Positions 5,367 to 62,630 of a DNA stretch of 64,000 nt are shown in pieces. The stretch spans positions 930,001-994,000 of the forward strand of contig NC_009718.1 in NCBI RefSeq assembly GCF_000017545.1. Direction: 5' to 3'. The position numbers and the translations under genes are program-made. Origin of the DNA: Fervidobacterium nodosum Rt17-B1 (GTDB taxonomy: Bacteria; Thermotogota; Thermotogae; Thermotogales; Fervidobacteriaceae). Every line of letters starts with the position of its first letter. Position 1 is the first letter of the stretch. The notes under the pieces were generated by a model. That model was given only the letters and a program-made list of their open reading frames with translations. It searched no databases and had not been told where the DNA came from.

Positions 5367-5442
5367 GACCTGGTAGCTCAGCAGGTAGAGCACCTGACTT
5401 TTAATCAGGGGGTCGCGGGTTCGAATCCCGCCCGGGTCACCA
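5367..5442 (+). tRNA. tRNA-Lys (anticodon TTT)
   Basis: 76-nt cloverleaf with encoded CCA. The acceptor stem GACCTGG pairs with CCGGGTC, the anticodon loop CTTTTAA reads TTT, and the T-loop TTCGAAT is present. First gene of a four-tRNA cluster. Confidence 0.96.
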
Positions 5443-5451
5443 GAAATAGGT

Positions 5452-5541
<90 letters not shown>

Positions 5542-5567
5542 AAGGAAAGATAAAGCAACCAAACAGA

Positions 5568-5642
5568 GCGGGTGTAGCTCAGCGGTAGAGCACTTGCTTG
5601 CCAAGCAAGGGGTCGCGGGTTCGAAACCCGTCACCCGCTCCA
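5568..5642 (+). tRNA. tRNA-Gly (anticodon GCC)
   Basis: 75-nt tRNA with encoded CCA. Acceptor GCGGGTG pairs with CACCCGC and the anticodon loop contains GCC. Confidence 0.96.
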
Positions 5643-5682
5643 AAAAAGGGAAAAACTAAACTACCAAACTTTGCATTAGCTT

Positions 5683-5770
5683 GCCGAGGTGGCGGAATTG
5701 GCAGACGCACATGGTTGAGGGCCATGCGGTCATTGGGACCGTGCGGGTTCAAGTCCCGCCCTCGGCACCA
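5683..5770 (+). tRNA. tRNA-Leu (anticodon GAG)
   Basis: 88-nt class II tRNA with encoded CCA. Anticodon stem CATGG/CCATG encloses TTGAGGG, giving GAG. Confidence 0.96.
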
Positions 5771-5790
5771 GCTCAAATAATAAATCAAAA

Positions 5791-5824
5791 AATAGCGATG
5801 GTTTTCCCATCGCTATTATTTTCT
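5791..5824 (+). terminator. Terminator of the tRNA cluster
   Basis: Perfect 11-bp stem (5791-5801 with 5807-5817) followed by ATTTTCT. It lies 20 bases after tRNA-Leu(GAG) and before tmRNA. Confidence 0.85.
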
Positions 5825-5844
5825 AAGGCTTGGGATAAAATTTT

Positions 5845-6206
5845 GGGGGCGAACGGTTTCGACGGGGGTAGGCCTTCGCAGGAAGCGAGCCGAGGTTGCC
5901 CACCGTCCTCGTAAAAAAACGGTGGGGAAAAGATAAGTGCCAACGAATACGTTCCTCTTGCTGCTTAATTAGAATTGGCAGCCGTCCACTATGAGAGTTG
6001 GCTGGTCTCTCATAGTCGGGCGTGACCCTACCAGCCAGGTGTTCAGAACGCGCCTCGGGTTCTGAAACACCTTAACCACTGAGGCTAGCCAAACTAAAGC
6101 CTGTCTGTGGGCGTTAGTTTGGCGAAATTCAAAACACAGACTGCGCTCGGAGATGCTTGCGGTGGCTTACTTTCGGACGCGGGTTCGATTCCCGCCGCCT
6201 CCACCA
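5845..6206 (+). ncRNA. ssrA: tmRNA (ssrA)
   Basis: Transfer-messenger RNA that frees stalled ribosomes and tags the unfinished protein for degradation. The 5' end GGGGGCGAACGGTTTCGACGG and the 3' end GGTTCGATTCCCGCCGCCTC-CACCA form the tRNA-like part. The tag frame, starting with GCC near 5939, encodes ANEYVPLAA and a stop. Length is about 362 nt. A GATAAA -10-like element lies just upstream (about 5834-5839), but no good -35 is seen. Confidence 0.97.
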
Positions 6207-47227: not shown

Positions 47228-48300
47228 TCTTTTTTTATGATTTTGTTAACCAAAGGTATTGATAAATTTCAAAAACCATATTATCTTCTTAAAGAGGGGA
47301 CACCCCCCAATATACTCTCAATAAGGAGGTATCCCGACATGACTAATATCCAACTCAAATGCCCTCATTGCGGCTCTTCTAACTTCATCAAAAATGGTCA
47401 TGATAAGTTCAAAAACCAAATCTTCTTTTGCAAAGACTGCAAGCGTTACTTTAAACTTTCTTTCACCAAAAAACACAAACTTTTCTCTTTCCCTTACCCT
47501 CGTTGTGTTCATTGTAACCATGTCATGGAAATTTACAAAATCCGCCGTTATTTCGTTCGTTTCAGATGCAGAAAGTGCAACTTCAAAACTTCTGTTCCAC
47601 TTTCTCTTCCTCAGCCTGTGCCTTTCAACTTTCATCCTTTCAAATTCTTCCGTTTCCCTATCTATATCATTCTCAAAGCTTTCATATTGTACTTCAAATA
47701 CAACCTTTCTCTTCGTGCTATTAAAGCTTGCTTGAATATCAATGTCTCTCATGTCGCTATTTACAAATGGATTATCAAGTTATCTTCTGTTATTTCGCTT
47801 TTTGAGTTTGAGAATGTATTTAAAGTTCATGGTGATGAAACAGTTATTGTATTTCGAGACAAAAAGTACTATGTGTGGCTATTAGTTGAGCATGGTACGA
47901 ATTTAATAGTAGCTTGGCATGTATCAAGATATCGTGATATGTCACAAGTTAAGATATTGTTAGATAAATACTTTAGTCAAAGAAAACAAAACACACAAAT
48001 AGAGTTAATAACCGATGGACTAAAAGCGTACGAGATAGCAGTAAAACTAAATTTTGATAATGTTGAGCACAGAGAAGTAAGACTAGGTAAAAACAACGAA
48101 TGTGAATCGAAATTTTCGTTATTTAAGATGTTTGTTAGAGCGAAAAGGAGCTTCAAGAAATTTAGCAACATACGGTACTATGTAAATGGTTTTTGTGTAG
48201 TAAGGAACCTATGCAAGTTATATGAGAACGAAAATGAGATGATTACAGCTTTAGCTTCCATCATCACTACTAGTTAACAGCATCTTTTTTATTCTTAATT
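47228..48300 (+). mobile_element. IS-like insertion carrying a DDE transposase (ends not resolved)
   Basis: A transposase gene lies between the cyclodeaminase ribosome site (47219-47227) and the decayed chemoreceptor gene. The true ends are not clear: GTTAAC occurs on both sides (47245-47250 and 48273-48278), but it is palindromic and too short to trust. Boundaries given are approximate. Confidence 0.55.
47339..48277 (+). CDS. DDE transposase with double zinc ribbon (IS6-like)
   Basis: 312-residue transposase, seemingly complete. The N-terminus has two CxxC zinc ribbons (CPHCGSSNF...FCKDC and CVHCNHV...RCRKC), then an HTH region (LSLRAIKACLNINVSHVAIYKWI). The catalytic domain has HGDETVI (Asp), LITDGLKAYE (Asp) and NNECESKF (Glu). 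AAGGAGG precedes the ATG at 47339; the longer frame to 47237 has no ribosome site. The family call is by architecture; IS6-related or an unclassified relative are both possible. Confidence 0.8.
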   Translation: MTNIQLKCPHCGSSNFIKNGHDKFKNQIFFCKDCKRYFKLSFTKKHKLFSFPYPRCVHCNHVMEIYKIRRYFVRFRCRKCNFKTSVPLSLPQPVPFNFHPFKFFRFPIYIILKAFILYFKYNLSLRAIKACLNINVSHVAIYKWIIKLSSVISLFEFENVFKVHGDETVIVFRDKKYYVWLLVEHGTNLIVAWHVSRYRDMSQVKILLDKYFSQRKQNTQIELITDGLKAYEIAVKLNFDNVEHREVRLGKNNECESKFSLFKMFVRAKRSFKKFSNIRYYVNGFCVVRNLCKLYENENEMITALASIITTS

Positions 48301-48512
48301 TTTCCCACGTTGAGTTAAAAATCTAATTTTAAGCAAATCCAAAGAGGAAGACAAAAAACTTCTATTTAATTATACCACACTCGAACGGATTATACCACAT
48401 GTACTTTTATCCTAGATTTTTCCTTGACAAACGTATATAATTTTTTGTAAAATGTTAAGATAGAATATCAAAAAACCCGCAAACATAAAAATTTCTATTG
48501 GAGGTGAAATTA
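48278..48512. other. Spacer between transposase and chemoreceptor remnant, with promoters in both directions
   Basis: 235 bases without a gene. Two minus-strand extended -10 motifs (TGGTATAAT at 48369-48377 and 48389-48397, 20 bases apart) point towards the transposase and the cyclodeaminase operon beyond it. A plus-strand promoter for the chemoreceptor lies at 48424-48453. Confidence 0.5.
48424..48453 (+). promoter_or_regulatory. Promoter of the chemoreceptor gene
   Basis: -35 TTGACA (48424-48429), 18-bp spacer, -10 TAAAAT (48448-48453), about 60 bases before the ATG at 48513. Confidence 0.75.
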
Positions 48513-50988
48513 ATGAGTATTAAAATGGTGAATTACATTTTATTACCTGTGTTAGTTGCTTTGGGAATTATTTTAACTGTTTTCTTAGGATACCATTTAA
48601 CTATCGATATTAGCCACCTTTGAATGAATAAGATTGAAGAAACATTTGTAAAAAATTTGGACAACAAATTTGAAGATATTCATAAAAACCTTCAACTTGC
48701 ATCCGATTATATTCTATCCAAACAACAGATATTAGAAGCATTTGCTAACAAGGATAGAGATACGCTAATACAATACGTGATGCCAATTTACGAGAATTTA
48801 TCAAAAAACTACAGAGTCAACCAAATACATTTTCATACTCCTGATTTGAAATCGTTTCTCAGAACTAATGATTTAAATAAATACGGAGATAGTTTAGACT
48901 TTAGAAATGACATAAAATATGCTCATACAATACGTGATGCCAATCCATGAGAATTTATCAAAAAACTATGAAACCAACCTAATACACTTCCATACTCCTG
49001 ATTTGAAATCGTTCCTCAGAACTAATGATTTAAATAAATACGGAGATAGTTTAGACTATAGAAATGACATAAAAGTTGTGCTCCAGAAAAAAGAACCCAT
49101 ATTTGTATCATCTCCAGGCAAAAGTGGTGTTGGCTTTAGATACGTAAGACCTGTATACTATAACAACGAATTTGTGGGTACAATGGAAGTTGGATTTTTA
49201 TTAAGTAAAGAAACGCTTAAGCAAATGGGAGAAGCTATTGTCTATCAATTCTTAGATGAATATGGTAAACCTGCAGAAATAATTACAAAACCTGACGAAG
49301 TTGAAGATTTTCTGCAAAAGTACAACATTGAAAACCTAAAAGCTGGAAAAGAATCTTCTTTTAGGGATGATAAATACTTTTACATAAATTATCCATTAAA
49401 AAATGTCGACGGTCAAACATTTGCAACCATTCTTCAAAGAATAGACGCAAGAAATATTTTTAGTATGCAGAAGAAAGGTATAACTTCACAGATTATAGTA
49501 GGTTTACTCGTAGCTTTAATAACAATAGCTGTTGTTATATTCTTCTCCTCACTCACGGTGAAAAAGATCTCAACTCTTGTGATAGAAATAGAAAAATTAC
49601 AAAAAGAAAGGAACTTAGCAAAAGGAATCTCATTCAAATCAGGTAAAGATGAAATATCAAGCGTTTTTCAAAAATTATCTGAGTTGCTCGCTAATTTAAG
49701 AAATATAATAAAAGAATTTGTCCTCTCATCAAAAGATTCTAACATTAGATTAGGTACACTTATCTCAAAAATCGATGATTCTTACTTCTCGCTTAAAGCG
49801 TTCAAGGAAAGCTTTGAATATGGAGTTCAAATGGCACAAACAGTATCTTCTTCAGTAGAGGAAACAACAGCAACAATAGAAGAAATATCTGCCACCACAT
49901 CAAACATATCAAAAGCTGCTCAAAGCGTTGCCACAGCAGTTGAAAAAATAACTAATGATGTTCAGCTAAGCAACGATTCGATTGTTCAAATGAAAGGTTC
50001 TGTTGATGAAACAATTCAAGGTTCTCAAGAAATAGTTGGGTTCGCAAATCAATTGAAAGAAAAATCCGAAAGGATAGGAGATATATTAAAGACTATAACG
50101 GATATAGCAGAGCAAACGAATTTATTAGCGTTGAACGCGGCAATAGAAGCGGCGCGCGCTGGAGAAGCTGGAAGGGGATTCGCGGTTGTCGCGGATGAAA
50201 TTAGAAAACTGGCTGAAAGCACAAGGATATCGGCTACAGAGATAGGTAAAATTCTAACAGAACTAAGAGACGGAGTTGGTGGAATAAGCGAAAGACTTGA
50301 AAGTTTTGATGAAAAGATTAGGAATATAGAATACGCAACTAAGTTGGTGAGTCAGAAACTTGAAGATATACAATCTGAAGTAACAACGCTAGAAAAAGAA
50401 GCATCAAACCTCGCGGCTGTAACGGAGGAACAAAGCGCATCTATAGAAGAAATATCCGCAGCAATGGCAACATTGTCAAAAACAGCAACCGACATGAGTG
50501 AACAGATGGAAATGAACAAAGAAGGGGCAGAAGAAATGGAAAATAGCTTTAAACTTATGAAACAATCCTCTTTTGAAGTATCTGAGTCATTTAAGAAAAT
50601 CGCATCAATTATATCAAGTGAAATAACCATTTTCAGCGAAAGCGAATTAAAAGACTTAATTAATAGTGCGATAGAAGCCCATGAAAAATGGGTGAAAGAT
50701 GTGGAAAGTGCTATAAACAGAATGGATGAAAAATTGAATGTCGTATTAGATGGCTCATTCTGCAAGTTTGGATCTATTTATCATTTCATTAGGCCACCAG
50801 AAAAAGTAGCGGACAAATGGAGAGAAATAGATGCACCACACATGAAAATCCATGCGCTCGGAAAAGAAATAGACGAGGCTTTAAGGAAAAAAGATTACGA
50901 AAAGGCAAAGCGTTTATTCAAAGAAGTTGAGAATACAAGAGACGAAGTAATCCGACTTACGAAGGAAATAGCCAATAACCTAAGTTAA
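48513..50988 (+). pseudogene. Methyl-accepting chemotaxis protein with CZB domain, broken by stop and frameshift
   Basis: GGAGGTGAAATTA-ATG begins a reading frame with a first membrane helix (residues about 8-27), stopped by an in-frame TGA at 48621-48623. The frame continues at once (MNKIEETFVKNL...) into a dCache_3-like sensor ([12 protein letters not shown]...NKYGDSLD), then a 157-bp tandem duplication shifts it by one base. The remaining frame from 48919 (689 codons) encodes the rest of the sensor, a second helix, the MCP coiled coil with a canonical tip ([16 protein letters not shown]) and a C-terminal CZB zinc-binding domain ([19 protein letters not shown]). The C-terminal frame has no ribosome site, so I call the gene broken; partial expression remains possible. 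Confidence 0.8.
48764..49077 (+). repeat. Tandem duplication, 157-bp unit, inside the chemoreceptor gene
   Basis: Unit 1 is 48764-48920 and unit 2 is 48921-49077. I count about 14 differences over the first 154 bases, roughly 91% identity. The unit length is not a multiple of three, so it breaks the frame. It covers the ligand-facing part of the dCache sensor (YVMPI...NLSKNY...[12 protein letters not shown]). Confidence 0.85.
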
Positions 50989-51116: not shown

Positions 51117-51389
51117 GGTGCCGTACTAAGCGGGGGGTTGGTGGTCCCCTGTAACCCGAAACCCACCTTAGCGGGGCTGAATTCCCCGTCTGAGGCTACC
51201 TGGGTTCGGAAACGGCGTACCTGATGGCGTTGAAGGTTGGGTCCTACGCAACAACTACCTGCGAACCGGGTCAGGTCCGGAAGGAAGCAGCCCTAAGTAG
51301 GCAAGTGTGTGCCGTAGGGGTGCCCGGCCGGAGCCACAACGGGTACGTACGACCGGGTTCAGGCGTGTCGAAGCGGGGTGTACGGCACC
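51117..51389 (+). ncRNA. ffs: Signal recognition particle RNA, long form with Alu domain
   Basis: About 273 nt. The termini GGTGCCGTAC and GTGTACGGCACC pair. The S-domain tip GGTCAGGTCCGGAAGGAAGC near 51269 is the universal SRP motif. The long 5' and 3' arms make it the Bacillus/Thermotoga type with an Alu-like domain rather than the short 4.5S form. A T-run (ATTTTTTATT) follows directly. Confidence 0.95.
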
Positions 51390-51426
51390 ATTTTTTATTG
51401 TATGAATTTTATAGACCAAAATAAAA
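51390..51426. terminator. Shared terminator region of two convergent RNA genes
   Basis: Only 37 bases separate the SRP RNA and RNase P RNA 3' ends. The plus strand has ATTTTTTATT just after SRP RNA and the minus strand has GCTTTTTTAT just after RNase P RNA. Each RNA's closing helix serves as the terminator stem. Confidence 0.7.
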
Positions 51427-51763
51427 AAGCTCAAGAGGGGCTGTAAGCCGGATTCTGTCTTGAGCAAGCATCTGTCTAAGCGGTCTACCCGGGGGATTTA
51501 GAGTGGGGCCGCCCAACCCCCTGTTTGACCTTGCTCCGGATGTGGGTTGCCAAGCCAGTGCATTACTGCACTGCTGGTGAGCTCTTACCTCACCTTTCCA
51601 CCCTTGCCTTACTCGGAATAACCTTTCAGGCGGTTTCCGTTTCTATGGCCCTATCCGTGGCTCACGCCACCTAGCCGTTAGCTAGCATCCTGCCCACGGA
51701 GTCCGGACTTTCCTCAGGACAGCCTTGTGCGGCTGCCTGCGCTTGCTCGCCCCTCTTGAGCTT
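51427..51763 (-). ncRNA. rnpB: RNase P RNA (class A)
   Basis: About 337 nt on the minus strand. The closing helix P1 pairs AAGCTCAAGAGGGGC with GCCCCTCTTGAGCTT. Conserved core elements in minus-strand reading: GAGGAAAGTCCGGAC near the 5' end, GGGTGGAAAGGTGAGGTAAGAGCTCACC in the middle (P10/11), and the 3' ACAGAATCCGGCTTACA. No clear promoter was found for it in the 170 bases upstream. Confidence 0.96.
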
Positions 51764-54821: not shown

Positions 54822-55700
54822 TTAATTGTCCCTCTTGCCCGTTTTTCCTATTATGTACGCATACCAAGCAGCACCGATAAAAATTAGAATAATACTAACA
54901 ACCTGAGCTGCTCGAAAGTGACCTGCCATAAGGCTGTCAAGCCTTAGTGATTCGATCCAAAAGCGACCTAATGAATAAAGTATAAGGTACAAAGCTGTTG
55001 TTTCACCATATTCACGTTTTCTTTTTTCAACAAAAAAGTACAGAAAAACAAATATAGTTATATCCCACAAACTTTCGTATAAAAAGGTTGGATGGAAAAA
55101 TCTATCAATATCAAAACCTGGCATTCTTCTTTCAGGTGGAACATACATTTTCCAAGGTAGTGTGGTGGGTCTTCCATAGGCTTCGTAATTGAAGAAATTT
55201 CCCCATCTACCGATGGCTTGAGCCAAAGGAAGCACAGAAGTAAACAAATCGGTTGCGTGGACAAATTTAAAATAACCTTTTATTTTTGAGTATATAAATA
55301 TCATCAGCAGAGCTCCAAATATACCACCATGGATAGCTAATCCACCGTGCCATATCTTATATATCTCCGAAGGATATTTCGAGTAGTAATTCCAATTAAA
55401 AATAACATAGTAAATCCTTGCCCCCAATATTCCGGCAACAATTCCCCAGAATAATCCCTCATCAAGATCTTCTGGTTTAATAGGATACATGCTTAATCTT
55501 CTTCTCGCAAGTACGTAAGCGACTAATATACCACTTGCAATACAAATACTGTACCACCTCAATTGAAATTTGCCAATTTGGAAAATGTAATCCCTAACAA
55601 TAAGCCGTCCAGAAAAAACTTCCCTTAAGAAGAAAAACAATCCAATTCCAACGGCTAAAATAATCACGACTGATAATATAATTCTTTTACTTTTGCTCAA
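54822..55700 (-). CDS. lgt: Prolipoprotein diacylglyceryl transferase with extra N-terminal helix
   Basis: 292-residue membrane enzyme that adds diacylglycerol to lipoprotein cysteines. Core signatures: HGGLAIHGGIFGA (catalytic His region) and AIGRWGNFFNYEAYG, with the late SLGRFWIESLR. An extra hydrophobic helix (IILSVVIILAVGIGLFFFL) precedes the usual first segment. I start at the TTG at 55700, which has GGAGGA 9 bases upstream and overlaps the preceding stop by 4 bases (TTGA). Confidence 0.92.
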   Translation of the reverse strand: MSKSKRIILSVVIILAVGIGLFFFLREVFSGRLIVRDYIFQIGKFQLRWYSICIASGILVAYVLARRRLSMYPIKPEDLDEGLFWGIVAGILGARIYYVIFNWNYYSKYPSEIYKIWHGGLAIHGGIFGALLMIFIYSKIKGYFKFVHATDLFTSVLPLAQAIGRWGNFFNYEAYGRPTTLPWKMYVPPERRMPGFDIDRFFHPTFLYESLWDITIFVFLYFFVEKRKREYGETTALYLILYSLGRFWIESLRLDSLMAGHFRAAQVVSIILIFIGAAWYAYIIGKTGKRDN

Positions 55701-56998
55701 CTTTGGCTCCTCCTTTTTCTTAAATCTTTTTCCCATAGTTGTTGATAAATATAACTTACATTAGCTAATTTCTCCTTTATTGAATCATCGAACGGTATAT
55801 ATCTCCAAAATATCTCACGAACAGGTTTTTCAAGCTTTTGAATACCGGCAACTTCTTTAGTAACCCATAGTAAATAATCTTTTACGAAATATTCCGCCGG
55901 GTTTCCTTTATACTTGTTGTTTTCAAGATACCTGTAATACTCTCCAGTTAAACCTTCCTCCATCCACCTGCCGAAAGAAAGCTCTTTTTCCAACTTCCAT
56001 CTATATTCACCAAAAGCTTGGTAAAATGGTTCAGTGCCTTTGCGTGAGAAAAGTGGTACAACAATTCTACCACGACCGTAAATATTCAATCCTTCAATAG
56101 GTTCCCAACAGAAGCCCATTTCGCCGTAACCCGGGACCAAAATTATATAAGGTGGCATAAATACTTCTGTACCACGTATATTTCTGGTAAGTGAAGTTTT
56201 ATCGATAAGCTTAAAATTTTCAATTAATTCGTTGACAAAAGATTTCGTGAAGACTTGGTTTATTTCTTTAAAGTAATTCGATATCAATGCAGGATATTGA
56301 ATACCAAATTTTCCAATAGCTTTTTTCACCATCTGCCTTACAACTAAGTGTTCTGTCAATTTCTTTTCACTACTTGACTTTAAAGGCAAATTTCTTTGTT
56401 TTTCATGCATCGAATCTAAAACTTCCTTTAAGTTCTTTATATCACTATCCATCTTCTTCAATTTTCCAATAGCTTTTATAACCTCATCAAATATTACGTA
56501 AACGCCTTTTGAATATGGTCCCTTCCCCTGTATTCCTTTCACAAGGTCTTTAAGTTTTTCTTCCTCTATACTTCTTTCAAACAACCTTCGTTCGTACTCC
56601 TTCTCAAACATTGTAGGATCAATTTGTCTTTCTTGCATACTATCTTGAATGACATCTTCGAAAGTTGATGGAGGAACTTTGCTTTTCTTAATAGCAATAA
56701 TCCATTCATCAGCATAAAAAACTGTATCACTCTGCACAAGCTTTACAATTTCTTTTATTCTATCCCAATCTTTTGCTAAGTAACGCGGATCAACAATGCC
56801 AGCCCTAATGAATAATCTTTGCTCCATAGGACTGTTTTCTTCAAGTAATTCCGCAATATTTAAATACACATCCCAAAATATTTCAGTGAAAGAATCTTTG
56901 TACTCGTTGAAATTCTCTTCTTGAAGTTTTTTCCTCTTCAAAAACTCTTCTTTTAACCCATCATCAATTCCTGATAAAAGCTTATCAAGATATTCCAT
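55697..56998 (-). CDS. Uncharacterised 433-residue protein
   Basis: Large soluble protein, no signal or membrane segment, family not recognised. The first 250 residues look helical and charged (YLDKLLSGIDDGLKEEFLKRKKLQEENFNEYKD, SPMEQRLFIRAG). A central block has proline/glycine-rich strands (VFMPPYIILVPGYGEMGFCWEPIEGLNIYGRGRIVVPLFSRKG), and the end is helical again with a basic tail. GGAGAGG precedes the ATG at 56998, one base after the stop of the winged-helix gene. Position in the chemosensory run suggests a shared job, unproven. Confidence 0.75.
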   Translation of the reverse strand: MEYLDKLLSGIDDGLKEEFLKRKKLQEENFNEYKDSFTEIFWDVYLNIAELLEENSPMEQRLFIRAGIVDPRYLAKDWDRIKEIVKLVQSDTVFYADEWIIAIKKSKVPPSTFEDVIQDSMQERQIDPTMFEKEYERRLFERSIEEEKLKDLVKGIQGKGPYSKGVYVIFDEVIKAIGKLKKMDSDIKNLKEVLDSMHEKQRNLPLKSSSEKKLTEHLVVRQMVKKAIGKFGIQYPALISNYFKEINQVFTKSFVNELIENFKLIDKTSLTRNIRGTEVFMPPYIILVPGYGEMGFCWEPIEGLNIYGRGRIVVPLFSRKGTEPFYQAFGEYRWKLEKELSFGRWMEEGLTGEYYRYLENNKYKGNPAEYFVKDYLLWVTKEVAGIQKLEKPVREIFWRYIPFDDSIKEKLANVSYIYQQLWEKDLRKRRSQS

Positions 56999-56999
56999 C

Positions 57000-57611
57000 T
57001 CAGCCTCTCCAAACAAGCTTGAGTTTATCACCTAAGAATTCCACAGAGTAAACATTTCTAAAACCTTTTCTCAACGCTTTCTCGCACATTTTATCAACAT
57101 TTTTAAAAGAAGCGACAATTAAAGCGTCCGCTTGTATATTTGTCTCTAAGCTTAAAACAGGTACTCCTTCTATCTTTGTCCCAACTTTGTTTCTGTCATC
57201 ATCTAAAAACGCTATAACATTGAATTTTTCTTTGTTAGCTATTAATCTAAATAATATCTTACCAACAACGCCGGCGCCGTAAATACAGATGTCTTTTTTT
57301 CCAACAAGCTTTAAAAACACATCCTGAAATTTAACTTCGATGCTTTTATACAATTCTGAAATTTCAGACAAATACGCTAATCTTAAATAATTAAGTTTTA
57401 TTAATCCTTTATTTGTAAGTTTATACTTCCCTTCGACTTTTTCCACAAGCTCATCTGAAAGAAAGGATTTAAGGTATTTATTAACCAACGAAGGTACAAT
57501 ACCTGCCTTCAAAGATATTTCGGAATGAGACGTAATTCCTTCGGAAAGAGCTTGTAAAATCATCATTTGTTTGTATAAGGGAGAATATTCAAAAAAATCA
57601 AATTTTTCCAT
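57000..57611 (-). CDS. Winged-helix plus Rossmann-fold protein
   Basis: 203 residues. Residues 1-65 read as a winged helix (MMILQALSEGITSHSEISLKAGIVPSLVNKYLKSFLSDELVEK...YKLTNKG). Residues about 105-200 form a small Rossmann fold starting CIYGAGVVGKILFRLI and AFLDDDRNKVGTKIEGVPVL, like the CoA/NAD-binding N-domain of sugar acetyltransferases or Rex. It could be a nucleotide-sensing regulator (inference); it is not Rex by sequence. GAGGAGG precedes the ATG at 57611. Confidence 0.75.
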   Translation of the reverse strand: MEKFDFFEYSPLYKQMMILQALSEGITSHSEISLKAGIVPSLVNKYLKSFLSDELVEKVEGKYKLTNKGLIKLNYLRLAYLSEISELYKSIEVKFQDVFLKLVGKKDICIYGAGVVGKILFRLIANKEKFNVIAFLDDDRNKVGTKIEGVPVLSLETNIQADALIVASFKNVDKMCEKALRKGFRNVYSVEFLGDKLKLVWRG

Positions 57612-57630
57612 CCAAATCCTCCTCATAATC

Positions 57631-58896
57631 TCACAATTTTATATCTCTAAACATTTGACCGAATTTTTCTACCTCAGATTTTATTTGACTAATTGCTTCT
57701 TCAAGTTGTTCAACACCTGCATACAACTGTTCCACAGCTTCATGAGTATTTCGAGAAATTCGAGAGAGTTTGTCTGTATTCTGTGTCGACGCAAATACAA
57801 CTTGGCTTATTAGATTCAATGATTCTCTGACATTGTTTAATTCTTTGGATATTTTTTCAGTAATCAAGACAGTCGAAGTAACTACTTTATCAACGTCTTT
57901 AAGTGAATTTTTTGACTCCTTGGCAAGAGAACGAGTTGAATTAGAAAGTTCCATTATCATTTCCGCTATTCGAGAAAGTCCGTCACGGTCTATTGTTTCT
58001 TTACTCGTCTCAATCGATGCGTTTATAGCTAATACAGTTATATTATCTGATATTTCAGTTATTTTTTCAACAAACCCGCCAACAGATTCTATCATATTCG
58101 TTAATTCCGTAACAGCATTCGTTATTTCTTCTATTGTTTTCGTAAAGTCTTTTATTCTATCTAATGTCGTTTCCACTTCCGCTCGGCTTTCTTCAAAATA
58201 AGCTGCAAATTCTTCAACTGATTTATCAAGCTCCATAGAGGCTTCTTCGGTATTTTGTGCCATAGATTTTATCTCAGCGGTTGAAGTAGATGTTGATATG
58301 ATATTGTCTGAAATCTTCTCCAACAATTCATTTGTCGCATAATATTGTTTCTTCGTAGGAGCAATAAGAATACCTCCAAAAATATAACCAATAATTATGG
58401 AAATTATAACCATTACTGGAATTAGAAACTTAAATATGTTAGATTGCAATCTTTTCAAATCTTTGAAAAGCTCATCTTCCCTTGCTGCATGAGCAAAGTA
58501 CTTTTCACCATCGTAAGAAAAAGCAACGTATCTTTTTACTCCTTGGTATAAATAAGAATATACTCCCGATTTTTCTTGTTTCATATATTCCAATAACCCT
58601 GGAACTTGGGTTTTTACGTCAATTCCTATTTTTGTCGGATCTGTATGGTAAAGCGTTATACCTTCAGTTGAAAGAACATAGTAATATCCAAATTCTGGTT
58701 TGAAATTAAGTAAAAAATCGTATTGTTTTATTTCGGAAAACACTTTTGTCTCATTTAAAAAATTCTTAAGTGTAATATTTTCGATAATTTTTGAAACTTG
58801 AGAAATCAATATCGAAAAGAAAACCAAAGTCGTTGCAAAAATTAATAACGCAATTATTAAAGCATACTTAGTTCTAAGTTTCATCCTTAATTTCAT
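57631..58896 (-). CDS. Divergent chemoreceptor-like membrane protein
   Basis: 421 residues. Helix 1 at 12-33, a small Cache-like sensor (34-155, YYYVLSTEGITLYHTDPTKIG...GVYSYLYQGVKRYVAFSY), helix 2 at 156-180, then a coiled-coil signalling domain. The segment at 279-322 aligns without gaps to the canonical MCP hairpin of the 50-kb receptor (16 of 44 identical), but the tip residues EAARAGE..GRGF are replaced by ETSKETIDRDGL. The cytoplasmic rod is also short. It probably couples to the CheA/CheW encoded upstream rather than to the general chemotaxis array (inference). GGGGGTGG precedes the ATG. Confidence 0.85.
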   Translation of the reverse strand: MKLRMKLRTKYALIIALLIFATTLVFFSILISQVSKIIENITLKNFLNETKVFSEIKQYDFLLNFKPEFGYYYVLSTEGITLYHTDPTKIGIDVKTQVPGLLEYMKQEKSGVYSYLYQGVKRYVAFSYDGEKYFAHAAREDELFKDLKRLQSNIFKFLIPVMVIISIIIGYIFGGILIAPTKKQYYATNELLEKISDNIISTSTSTAEIKSMAQNTEEASMELDKSVEEFAAYFEESRAEVETTLDRIKDFTKTIEEITNAVTELTNMIESVGGFVEKITEISDNITVLAINASIETSKETIDRDGLSRIAEMIMELSNSTRSLAKESKNSLKDVDKVVTSTVLITEKISKELNNVRESLNLISQVVFASTQNTDKLSRISRNTHEAVEQLYAGVEQLEEAISQIKSEVEKFGQMFRDIKL

Positions 58897-58920
58897 ATTT
58901 ATCCACCCCCAATTAAGATT

Positions 58921-60228
58921 TTATGTTAATTTTTCAATTAGCTCTCCAATCGTTTCACCGTGCCACTCGACAACTTTACAATCAAAATCAATTTTAATAT
59001 TTTCACTTTGTGCAATTTTTTGTACATTTTTTTTGCACTCTTCAATCTCTAATTTAGCTCGTTCTATATCTTCGCCAATAAATATACAAACGAACTCATT
59101 AGCAGAAAACCTTGCAGAAAACTCCTGAAATTTCTCAAGAAAAACGTTTCCAATCTTTTTCAATAAATTATTTGTCGCATCTTCACCATGTTTAGTACTT
59201 ATCTCTCTAAGATTTTTGATTGTTAATTTTCCAAGTGATGCTGGCAAGTTATTCCTTTGAACAAAATCCAAAGCGTTCAATAATCTCGTTCTAAAATATG
59301 TTTTATTGTATAACCCGGTGACTTCATCTATCTCTTTTCCTGATGAAAGATTGTTGTAATCGTTAATTAAACCTATTAAAGCACCAATTGGTTCGTTAAC
59401 AATCGAAAGCACATGTTGAACAACTTCATGTGAAGAAGGCTCTTCCACAACTAAAAACCCTACAGGTTCACCCTTTTGGTAGATAATCTCTATTACAAAA
59501 TTATCTTTTATTTTTCTATTTCCATCAAAATATGCTTTTACACTGGAATAATATCTTATGCCCGTAAAATTTTCTATAAACGAATGTAATTCTTCTGGCG
59601 AGGCTAAATTCTCACCAAACCCATAGAGCCTCATTTCAGACAATGAACAAATGCTCATATACATCGCTTTAAAGTTCAGTACTTCACTAAAAAGTTCAAA
59701 AAGCTTATTTACAACAAGCCTTTCATCGTAAATAAATTCGGAATAGCTCATTATTTCTCTCACCAGAGTCGATTCTTTTAAGCTCTCTTCAATTATATCC
59801 ACAAGTTCTCCATATGGTTCTATATGGATTTTGTAAATTTCCCTTGACCATTCCATAGCGAACGGTTTATTGACAAATTCAAGTACTTCTTTCTCTAATT
59901 CATCTTGAGGAAGTGTTTTCTTTAAAAAATAATTCACACCACTTTTTTTAGCCCAAAATTTATTGACTGTTTCATCAGCACCTGTAAGCATGATTATTCC
60001 AACATTTTTCGAAAAACTAAAACTCCTAATGAAGCGTGTGAAATGTATACCATTAAGCTTTGGCATTACGTAATCAACAATAACAACATCTGGGAGGAAA
60101 GTAAAAAACTTGTTTATACCATCCAAACCATCTTTGGCGGTTTCAACATTGTAACCCTTAATTTCCAAAAGATTCTGCAAAAAATTTCTCCAAACTGTCG
60201 AATCATCAATCGCGAGCACTTTTTTCAC
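58921..60228 (-). CDS. Response regulator with degenerate GGDEF domain
   Basis: 435 residues. Receiver domain 1-120 with the phospho-Asp in VVIVDYVMPKLNG and DDS near the start. A middle GAF-like region (about 140-280) follows. The C-terminal 150 residues follow the GGDEF fold (EVTGLYNKTYF), but the active loop reads SANEF instead of GGDEF, so cyclase activity is not expected. It may bind a partner or nucleotide instead. The GTG at 60228 has GGGGTGA upstream. 29 bases after cheB. Confidence 0.88.
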   Translation of the reverse strand: MKKVLAIDDSTVWRNFLQNLLEIKGYNVETAKDGLDGINKFFTFLPDVVIVDYVMPKLNGIHFTRFIRSFSFSKNVGIIMLTGADETVNKFWAKKSGVNYFLKKTLPQDELEKEVLEFVNKPFAMEWSREIYKIHIEPYGELVDIIEESLKESTLVREIMSYSEFIYDERLVVNKLFELFSEVLNFKAMYMSICSLSEMRLYGFGENLASPEELHSFIENFTGIRYYSSVKAYFDGNRKIKDNFVIEIIYQKGEPVGFLVVEEPSSHEVVQHVLSIVNEPIGALIGLINDYNNLSSGKEIDEVTGLYNKTYFRTRLLNALDFVQRNNLPASLGKLTIKNLREISTKHGEDATNNLLKKIGNVFLEKFQEFSARFSANEFVCIFIGEDIERAKLEIEECKKNVQKIAQSENIKIDFDCKVVEWHGETIGELIEKLT

Positions 60229-60257
60229 ATTTATCACCCCGCTTAAATTATTTATAA

Positions 60258-60851
60258 TCAATAATCTTGCAAAGCTTGTCTGTTAATTCTTATTATTATA
60301 TCTTTTATTCTACTCTGTTCCGCTTGTTCATACCTCATTTCTAATTCTTTCGCGATGTTGTTTGGCAGATAAGGAAACCTTGGACTTTTCTCAATAACAA
60401 ATTTAACTCCCTTATTTCTGAGTATTTTGGCATAGTCTTTTCCATCGTCGCCAAGTCCGCCGAGTACTATAATAGTTGTTTTATCGTCTGCGTATTTGAC
60501 AAGCGATTCAAATAACTTTGATATCGAAGGATGTACCTTATATTCACTCTCAACAGAATTCAAAGTATTTTCCGAAATGAAAATTATATCTTTACCGCCT
60601 TTTGGTAAGTATATTTCATTTTTTATAGGAGTTGGTTGATCAACGATTTTTACTATATGTCCTGTCTCAATTTCGATGTGATTTGCAAACGTTTCCATAG
60701 CACTACTTGTAAAATGGATACATATAATTACTGGAATATTAAGCTTTTCGTTTATTTTCAAAAGGTTTACTGCAACATTAGGGCTTCCCGCGGAACCAAC
60801 AATTATAACTTTGTAATTAGCTTTATTAATCATATCTTTTGAACTTTCCAT
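60258..60851 (-). CDS. Stand-alone CheB-type methylesterase domain
   Basis: 197 residues matching only the catalytic domain of CheB. The triad is visible as Ser in VGSAGSP near residue 20, His in CIHFTSS near 45 and Asp in LGGLGDDGKDY near 135. The usual N-terminal receiver is absent; receivers are supplied by the neighbouring proteins. It would demethylate or deamidate receptors. No cheR is visible in the window. Confidence 0.88.
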   Translation of the reverse strand: MESSKDMINKANYKVIIVGSAGSPNVAVNLLKINEKLNIPVIICIHFTSSAMETFANHIEIETGHIVKIVDQPTPIKNEIYLPKGGKDIIFISENTLNSVESEYKVHPSISKLFESLVKYADDKTTIIVLGGLGDDGKDYAKILRNKGVKFVIEKSPRFPYLPNNIAKELEMRYEQAEQSRIKDIIIRINRQALQDY

Positions 60852-60875
60852 TTTTTCACATCCATATACATAAAA

Positions 60876-62630
60876 TTATCCTACCAATTTTTCGATTAAT
60901 CTCAGCAATCTCTCTGGTGATTCTTCTTTTGATAAATAAGCATCCGCACCAACTTCGAGTCCTTTTGCTAATTGTTCTTTAGAAAGTGTGCTAAACAATA
61001 TCACCGGTAAGTCTTTTTTTATTTGTTTTATTCTCCTTGTGGTTTCAAAACCATCTATATCTGGCATTTCCACATCGCAAACAACAACATCGCAATTTGA
61101 ACTCTCAACATAACTTATCGCTTCTGAACCATTTTTGGCTTCTATTACCTCGTAACCAAAAGCTTCCAAGAACTTAGATACAACACTTCTTGTAACGACA
61201 GAATCGTCAACGAGTAAAACATTGATTTTCTTTGTTTTTTTAACTTCTCCTTCTCTAAATGAATCTATATCGATTATAGGTAATGGATAAACATAAACAT
61301 TTTTGACAAAACCCTTTACAGATGGATAGCTTTCACTACTTACTTGCCCATCGAAAATGCCAACTATATTATCTACGAAAATAGCTCTATAATTTCGGGT
61401 TATTATTCCAAATCTTGGATTCGAGGATTTGTACACTACATCGCATACCTTATCTTTGTATTTAACTTTACCATCAATTGCTTTTAACTTCGTAACTATC
61501 TCAAGCACGTCTTGTGTACTTATACAAAATTGTTGCCCATCAGCTTCAAGAACGAGTACTTTAATAAGGAATGATTTCACTGGAAAGTGGATTATAAACC
61601 GTGTTCCTATTCCCGGTGTAGTAACAAACTCCACATCACCACCACGTGCCATAGCAAAATTCTTGACAGCGTCAAGTCCAACACCTCTACCAGCTGTACC
61701 ATCAGCTTCTTCTTTTGTTGAAAATCCGGGCACAAATATAACATCCTCTGGTCTTAAGTGTCCAAGGTTTCTCTCCATGGCTTTCTTTCTTACTTTTTCA
61801 AAGTCTATCCCTTGACCATCGTCTTCTACCTCTAAATAGAGTTCATTATTCAGCACATAACTTCTAATAGTTATTACGCCTATTTCGTCTTTTCCAATTT
61901 TTTTCCTTTCATCAGGCGATTCTATACCATGAGATATCGAATTTCTAACTAAGTGAACAAGTATATCAATTAAAGCTTTCGAATCTTTCTTCTCAACCAT
62001 TTCATCACCAATCTCAAGGTTTAATCTTACTTTCTTTTTTGCATTCGTTGCCTCCTGAACGATTAATGTATCGAAGTTCGAAAGAATATTTCGAAGCTTA
62101 GTATAGTATAATTCTTGGATAGTGGAAGTTAATTTGGACTTCGCCAAACGAATAATCCTAAGTGCACTATTTATATCTCCACGCATTAAGCTATTTTCCG
62201 TTGTTAGAGCCATCGATAAAAATTCTTGGATATATTCGACAGATAAAGCTCCCTGCTCTTTAGAAAATATAGTTGTTTCAGCCTCTTTCTTTCCTTCTAA
62301 CCTATCGATTAAATCCTGGACTTCTGATTCTGAAAGGTCGCCATCACGCTCCAAAAGAGGTGGTATTATCGATAATAGCCTTGACAAAAATTCATCTGAT
62401 AATTCACCTTGTCCAGCCAAATAACTTTTGAAGTAATCTTCGATTTTATGAAATAAATTTTTGTAACCAACAAGTCCAACAAGACTTGCTGACCCTTTGA
62501 TAGTGTGAAATAATCTGTATATATCATTTATCAACGCTCCATCTCTCGATTCAAGGAAGGATTTTATGTCATTTATTGATTCATTTCCCTTCTCACGAAG
62601 TTCCTCAAAAAACATTTCTAAGAAGTCCAT
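60876..62630 (-). CDS. CheA-type histidine kinase fused to a receiver domain
   Basis: 584 residues. HPt at 1-105 with phospho-His in RLFHTIKGSASLVG; no CheY-binding P2; dimerisation helices about 130-200; ATPase about 200-345 (HLVRNSISHGIESPDERK, DDGQGID, GRGVGLDAVK); CheW-like about 350-450; receiver about 465-584 with phospho-Asp in VVCDVEMPDIDG and Lys in LSKEE. Hybrid CheA-REC proteins are typical of Tfp or alternative-function chemosensory systems. AAAGGAG precedes the ATG. Confidence 0.93.
   Translation of the reverse strand: MDFLEMFFEELREKGNESINDIKSFLESRDGALINDIYRLFHTIKGSASLVGLVGYKNLFHKIEDYFKSYLAGQGELSDEFLSRLLSIIPPLLERDGDLSESEVQDLIDRLEGKKEAETTIFSKEQGALSVEYIQEFLSMALTTENSLMRGDINSALRIIRLAKSKLTSTIQELYYTKLRNILSNFDTLIVQEATNAKKKVRLNLEIGDEMVEKKDSKALIDILVHLVRNSISHGIESPDERKKIGKDEIGVITIRSYVLNNELYLEVEDDGQGIDFEKVRKKAMERNLGHLRPEDVIFVPGFSTKEEADGTAGRGVGLDAVKNFAMARGGDVEFVTTPGIGTRFIIHFPVKSFLIKVLVLEADGQQFCISTQDVLEIVTKLKAIDGKVKYKDKVCDVVYKSSNPRFGIITRNYRAIFVDNIVGIFDGQVSSESYPSVKGFVKNVYVYPLPIIDIDSFREGEVKKTKKINVLLVDDSVVTRSVVSKFLEAFGYEVIEAKNGSEAISYVESSNCDVVVCDVEMPDIDGFETTRRIKQIKKDLPVILFSTLSKEQLAKGLEVGADAYLSKEESPERLLRLIEKLVG

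Follow-up and report, generated by a model that had tools for sequence, protein, structure and literature searches.

The window analyzed here, a 64,000-nucleotide stretch of Fervidobacterium nodosum Rt17-B1 DNA, comes from a genome of 1,948,941 bases in a single contig and carries at 48513..50988 (plus strand, as are all features of this gene given below) a disrupted chemoreceptor gene, delimited by Pfam matches and by an orthologue in a congener. Leaving the breaks aside, its architecture is a transmembrane segment, a dCache_3 sensor, a second transmembrane segment, an MCP signalling domain and a CZB domain. A candidate promoter, TTGACA-18-TAAAAT (48424..48453), matches 11 of 12 consensus positions; the Shine-Dalgarno-like sequence GGAGGTGA (48500..48507) lies ahead of the ATG at 48513. 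The frame that starts there is interrupted by a TGA (48621..48623, located by homologue alignment) and by a frameshift, whereas its homologues are open. A middle frame of 108 aa (48624..48950 in the ORF list), whose ATG adjoins the TGA directly, matches dCache_3 with an E value of 1.4e-8 and contains the first of two 157-bp repeat units. It is followed by a 689-aa frame (48919..50988; ORF list, Pfam) with no stop inside it, which holds the remainder of the sensor, the signalling domain at ∼50023-50481 (PF00015, E 3e-39, 135.1 bits) and the CZB domain at ∼50680-50871 (PF13682, E 3.4e-8, 34.2 bits against a cut-off of 29.4), together with, on our reading, the second transmembrane segment. The dCache_3 profile (PF14827) gives two partial matches that flank the junction, covering positions 19-93 and 57-155 of 239.

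Across nine genomes of the genus, F. nodosum included, the closest relative is one intact receptor of another genome (G008; L042:2704-5043, minus strand; open frame 795), which has the same dCache_3-MCP-CZB order and 49% amino acid identity over the 689-aa ORF. Its match to PF14827 is partial as well (12-152 of 239). Unlike the window gene, it has the 157-bp stretch in single copy and a frame that is open throughout.

Upstream of the gene lies an insertion element with a transposase ORF (47237-48277; DDE_Tnp_IS240, with a zinc ribbon), one of 14 near-full copies of this IS240-type element in the genome. The element was considered as a cause of the break and rejected, because it ends ∼225 bp short of the ATG and leaves the gene itself untouched. 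Just 3' of the receptor gene, at 51121-51758, a large SRP RNA (plus strand) stands beside an RNase P RNA (minus strand), and near the start of the window (5367-6206) a run of tRNAs is followed by tmRNA. A run of chemosensory-looking genes occupies 55697-62630 on the minus strand; it contains an MCP-like ORF (57631-58896) with a weak PF00015 match and ORFs that we read as response regulator-like, CheB-like and CheA-like. Elsewhere in the genome, a flagellin pair (L085, G000:C1:1604484-1604894) has a TAG near the N-terminus of one member at a position where its neighbor has Trp, with the rest of the frame open.

A reading made from the sequence alone had described the receptor as broken twice, and both lesions, the TGA at 48621-48623 and the frame-shifting tandem units, were confirmed; both are known from one strain. 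The TGA is codon 37 of the frame from ATG 48513, and it probably lies where the first transmembrane segment reaches its outer end. Among 15 aligned homologues this column holds Trp in 11, Ile in three and Met in one, and the second dCache_3 receptor of the same genome (G000:C1:829 kb), when translated in its own frame, shares the Trp. That the TGA is recoded as Trp is unlikely, as other broken relatives have TAA at non-Trp columns and also frameshifts.

Tandem Repeats Finder reports one array at 48760-49074 with a period of 157, 2.0 copies, 90% matches, no indels and a score of 525, far above chance. Direct comparison of unit 1 (48760..48916, in the first frame) with unit 2 (48917..49073, in the frame of the downstream ORF) gives 142 identical and 15 differing positions of 157, in agreement with the earlier view that such divergence is too great for slippage in the very recent past. 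Because 157 is not divisible by 3, the initial frame runs into a stop at 48948-48950, and the receptor frame is taken up again in unit 2. The 51 codons complete in both units contain 14 differences, 11 of them transitions. Compared codon by codon, they comprise six synonymous and five amino acid-changing codons and no stops. Neutral simulation predicts 9.4 changing codons (P 0.006-0.007 for the five seen), a shortfall that arises partly because neighboring changes share a codon; the synonymous excess by itself is weak (P 0.10).

The differences are indeed clustered, with 12 of 14 in the first 69 nt and two in the last 84 (Fisher P 0.0016; scan test P 0.0045). The sequence-only reading took this clustering as a sign of gene conversion or of recombination with a paralogue. 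Across the family, however, the sensor varies most in this same part (mean entropy 2.16 versus 1.33 bits); selection could therefore account for the cluster, and conversion need not be invoked. The differing residues do not fall significantly at more variable columns (P 0.28). Synonymous changes lean toward the 5' part as well (5 of 23 versus 1 of 28 codons, P 0.08), which leaves some weak room for conversion. The junction combines traits of the start of the unit with traits of the sequence 3' of unit 2; the first event was perhaps an in-frame duplication that was later altered.

It had also been proposed that the repeat reflects sensor shuffling between paralogous receptors, or that the receptor is phase-switchable through loss of a unit. 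Searched as DNA against the 1.95-Mb genome, the region returned only itself (the next best match is 26 nt, E 0.003), and a paralogue as the donor of a unit was therefore rejected; plasmid records gave no match either. Unit 1 has more identities to eight of 15 homologues and unit 2 to four, with ties in three; the margins are mostly small (1 to 4 residues of 51), and the nearest orthologue is closer to unit 2 (31 versus 28 identities). As neither unit is consistently closer to the 15 homologues, neither carries the mark of another receptor type, and shuffling from a donor within the genome, which called for the units to match different paralogues, fails. The units do have stretches of perfect identity as long as 43 bp, enough for recombination to drop one. 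However, the TGA at 48621 lies upstream of the repeat and outside it, so a change in the repeat would not restore an open gene and a switch by unit loss is unlikely. We regard paralogue-driven shuffling or phase switching as very improbable.

The best overall explanation, in which we place reasonable confidence, is that the locus is a pseudogene of a membrane chemoreceptor whose units had partly diverged before the gene broke, in the course of dCache_3 turnover; the TGA and the frameshift 5' of an intact 689-aa ORF support the pseudogene. The repeat would have originated by local tandem duplication or as the junction of two diverged alleles of the same receptor gene. The units would have diverged in part while the coding sequence was still under constraint, and the frame break and TGA may have come later than part of that divergence; late lesions would leave the rest of the gene free of accumulated stops. 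In simulations of the downstream 1911 nt, ∼2.5 stops are expected at 5% neutral drift (P of none 0.08) and ∼4.9 at 10% (P of none 0.0025), and the 689-aa ORF contains none. Either the divergence of the units is older than the break or the ORF is still used, and modest support leads us to prefer the former.

A promoter-like site and ribosome-binding site that look intact, and a long downstream frame that may still be in use, count against a pseudogene. On this alternative, which we consider doubtful, the 689-aa ORF would still yield a shortened receptor, translated from a start within unit 2 or through reinitiation once the short frames have ended. The lack of stops, the intact signalling and CZB domains and the promoter-like and Shine-Dalgarno-like sequences upstream are all consistent with it, drift as large as that between the units should have left stops downstream, and reinitiation could draw on the ATG right after the TGA and on the 32-nt overlap of the middle and downstream frames. 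However, by eye no ribosome-binding site is seen close 5' of the ATG at 48919, a receptor without its first transmembrane segment probably could not place its sensor half outside as its relatives do, and recent inactivation accounts equally well for the open frame. The import of one unit by recombination from another strain carrying a diverged allele of this gene, through an unequal join, is a sub-case of the pseudogene reading that concerns how the repeat arose. The ∼10% divergence, largely within one stretch, and the 5' lean of the synonymous changes speak for it, but the local copy is single in the genome, the plasmid records offer no donor, a first scan of species genomes gave no relative, and the best match outside the genome is the 49% identical receptor among the nine of the genus; such an import is improbable. 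Sequencing or assembly error is highly unlikely: the single-contig genome is known from one assembly and the TGA is just one codon, but the 15 differences in 157 positions mean that the second unit is no misassembled copy, and related receptors carry independent lesions.

The second dCache_3 receptor of F. nodosum (L041:1472-3286) likewise has a sensor with a broken frame: within the corresponding region the frame changes twice, near L041:1655 and at an exact 11-bp tandem repeat (L041:1865-1886). A search for PF14827 in 20 genomes of the family gave 23 rows, 20 of them over the cut-off; these represent 19 genes, because the window gene is matched twice. Of the 19, five are broken: two in F. 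nodosum (G000) and one each in G001, G008 and G009. The three outside F. nodosum (L059, L070 and L062, respectively) have in-frame stops in the sensor (two stops in G001, a TGA in G008 and a TAA in G009) followed by long open frames, and the three dCache_3 genes under the cut-off have no stop inside the match. The corresponding search for dCache_1 (PF02743) in the same genomes gave 50 rows, 42 over the cut-off, and no stop inside the sensor match in any of the 50; one dCache_1 gene of G001 has a stop in the signalling half, outside the sensor. The contrast of 5/19 with 0/42 within the scanned sensor match gives a Fisher P of 0.002, and 5/19 with 1/42, when the G001 gene is counted and the other 41 are scanned in the sensor only, a P of 0.009; both values are optimistic, because the comparison was chosen once the data had been seen, the set includes draft genomes and the genes share common ancestry.

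Among the matches listed of 188 for the signalling domain, at least one row has stops (G012, eight stops), and among those listed of 286 for a solute-binding protein comparison none does. A second scan of species genomes gave 30 distant loci with shorter matches, of which none has a stop in the match and just one shows the MCP motif searched for. Two proteins of 335-338 aa (L055, L060) have a dCache_3 sensor and no other Pfam domain. We considered them as truncated receptors and dropped the idea: L087, from another genome, is a dCache_3 frame of matching length (335 codons) that lacks the MCP motif searched for, which points to a real short form, and L055 and L060 were therefore left out of the broken count. 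The three are possibly a sensor-only form.

The genome encodes a CheA domain within an open frame of 673 aa and contains five flagellin-type matches, and the organism thus retains chemotaxis genes. Loss of the sensor may accompany a turnover of dCache_3 genes in the family, with the chemotaxis genes staying in this genome. A further possibility is an on-off cycle of dCache_3 receptors in this thermophile family, in which sensors are repeatedly broken by stops and short tandem repeats and signalling halves stay intact, as a standing pool that recombination could revive or as shortened signalling receptors; we think this quite improbable.

Chemoreceptor pseudogenes are already known in Campylobacter and Pseudomonas. 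In the part of the Campylobacter study considered here (PMC6433261), small lesions have inactivated Tlp genes time and again; certain types are broken in all of the strains covered, while others are intact, and the window gene resembles these pseudogenes in that respect. The lesions described in that part, from another lineage, are point changes, small deletions and a large internal deletion, and no tandem-repeat case appears among them. The Pseudomonas receptors PctA, PctB and PctC, according to the portion of that report used here (PMC6974571), undergo fast duplication, pseudogene formation and loss, and their sensory domains change faster than the signalling domains. This rapid turnover, with its quicker change in the sensory domains, is the likeness to the present case; as described there, these are dCache amino acid receptors of a different lineage, and they arose by whole-gene duplication, in contrast to the partial tandem repeat within the sensor seen here. 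No publication naming this locus was found in the literature on Fervidobacterium chemotaxis and pseudogenes, on chemoreceptor pseudogenes or on tandem duplication and phase variation of chemotaxis receptors, as judged from the openings of abstracts.

The evidence supports a pseudogene and does not support paralogue shuffling or switching. Most likely the locus is simply a gene in ordinary decay, like several other broken receptors of its type in related species, and as it stands it adds one more decaying chemoreceptor, of value chiefly to annotation. Should the surplus of broken dCache_3 genes in this family hold up in a planned test, it would show which sensory input these thermophiles are giving up and that receptor loss begins in the sensor, not in the signalling half.
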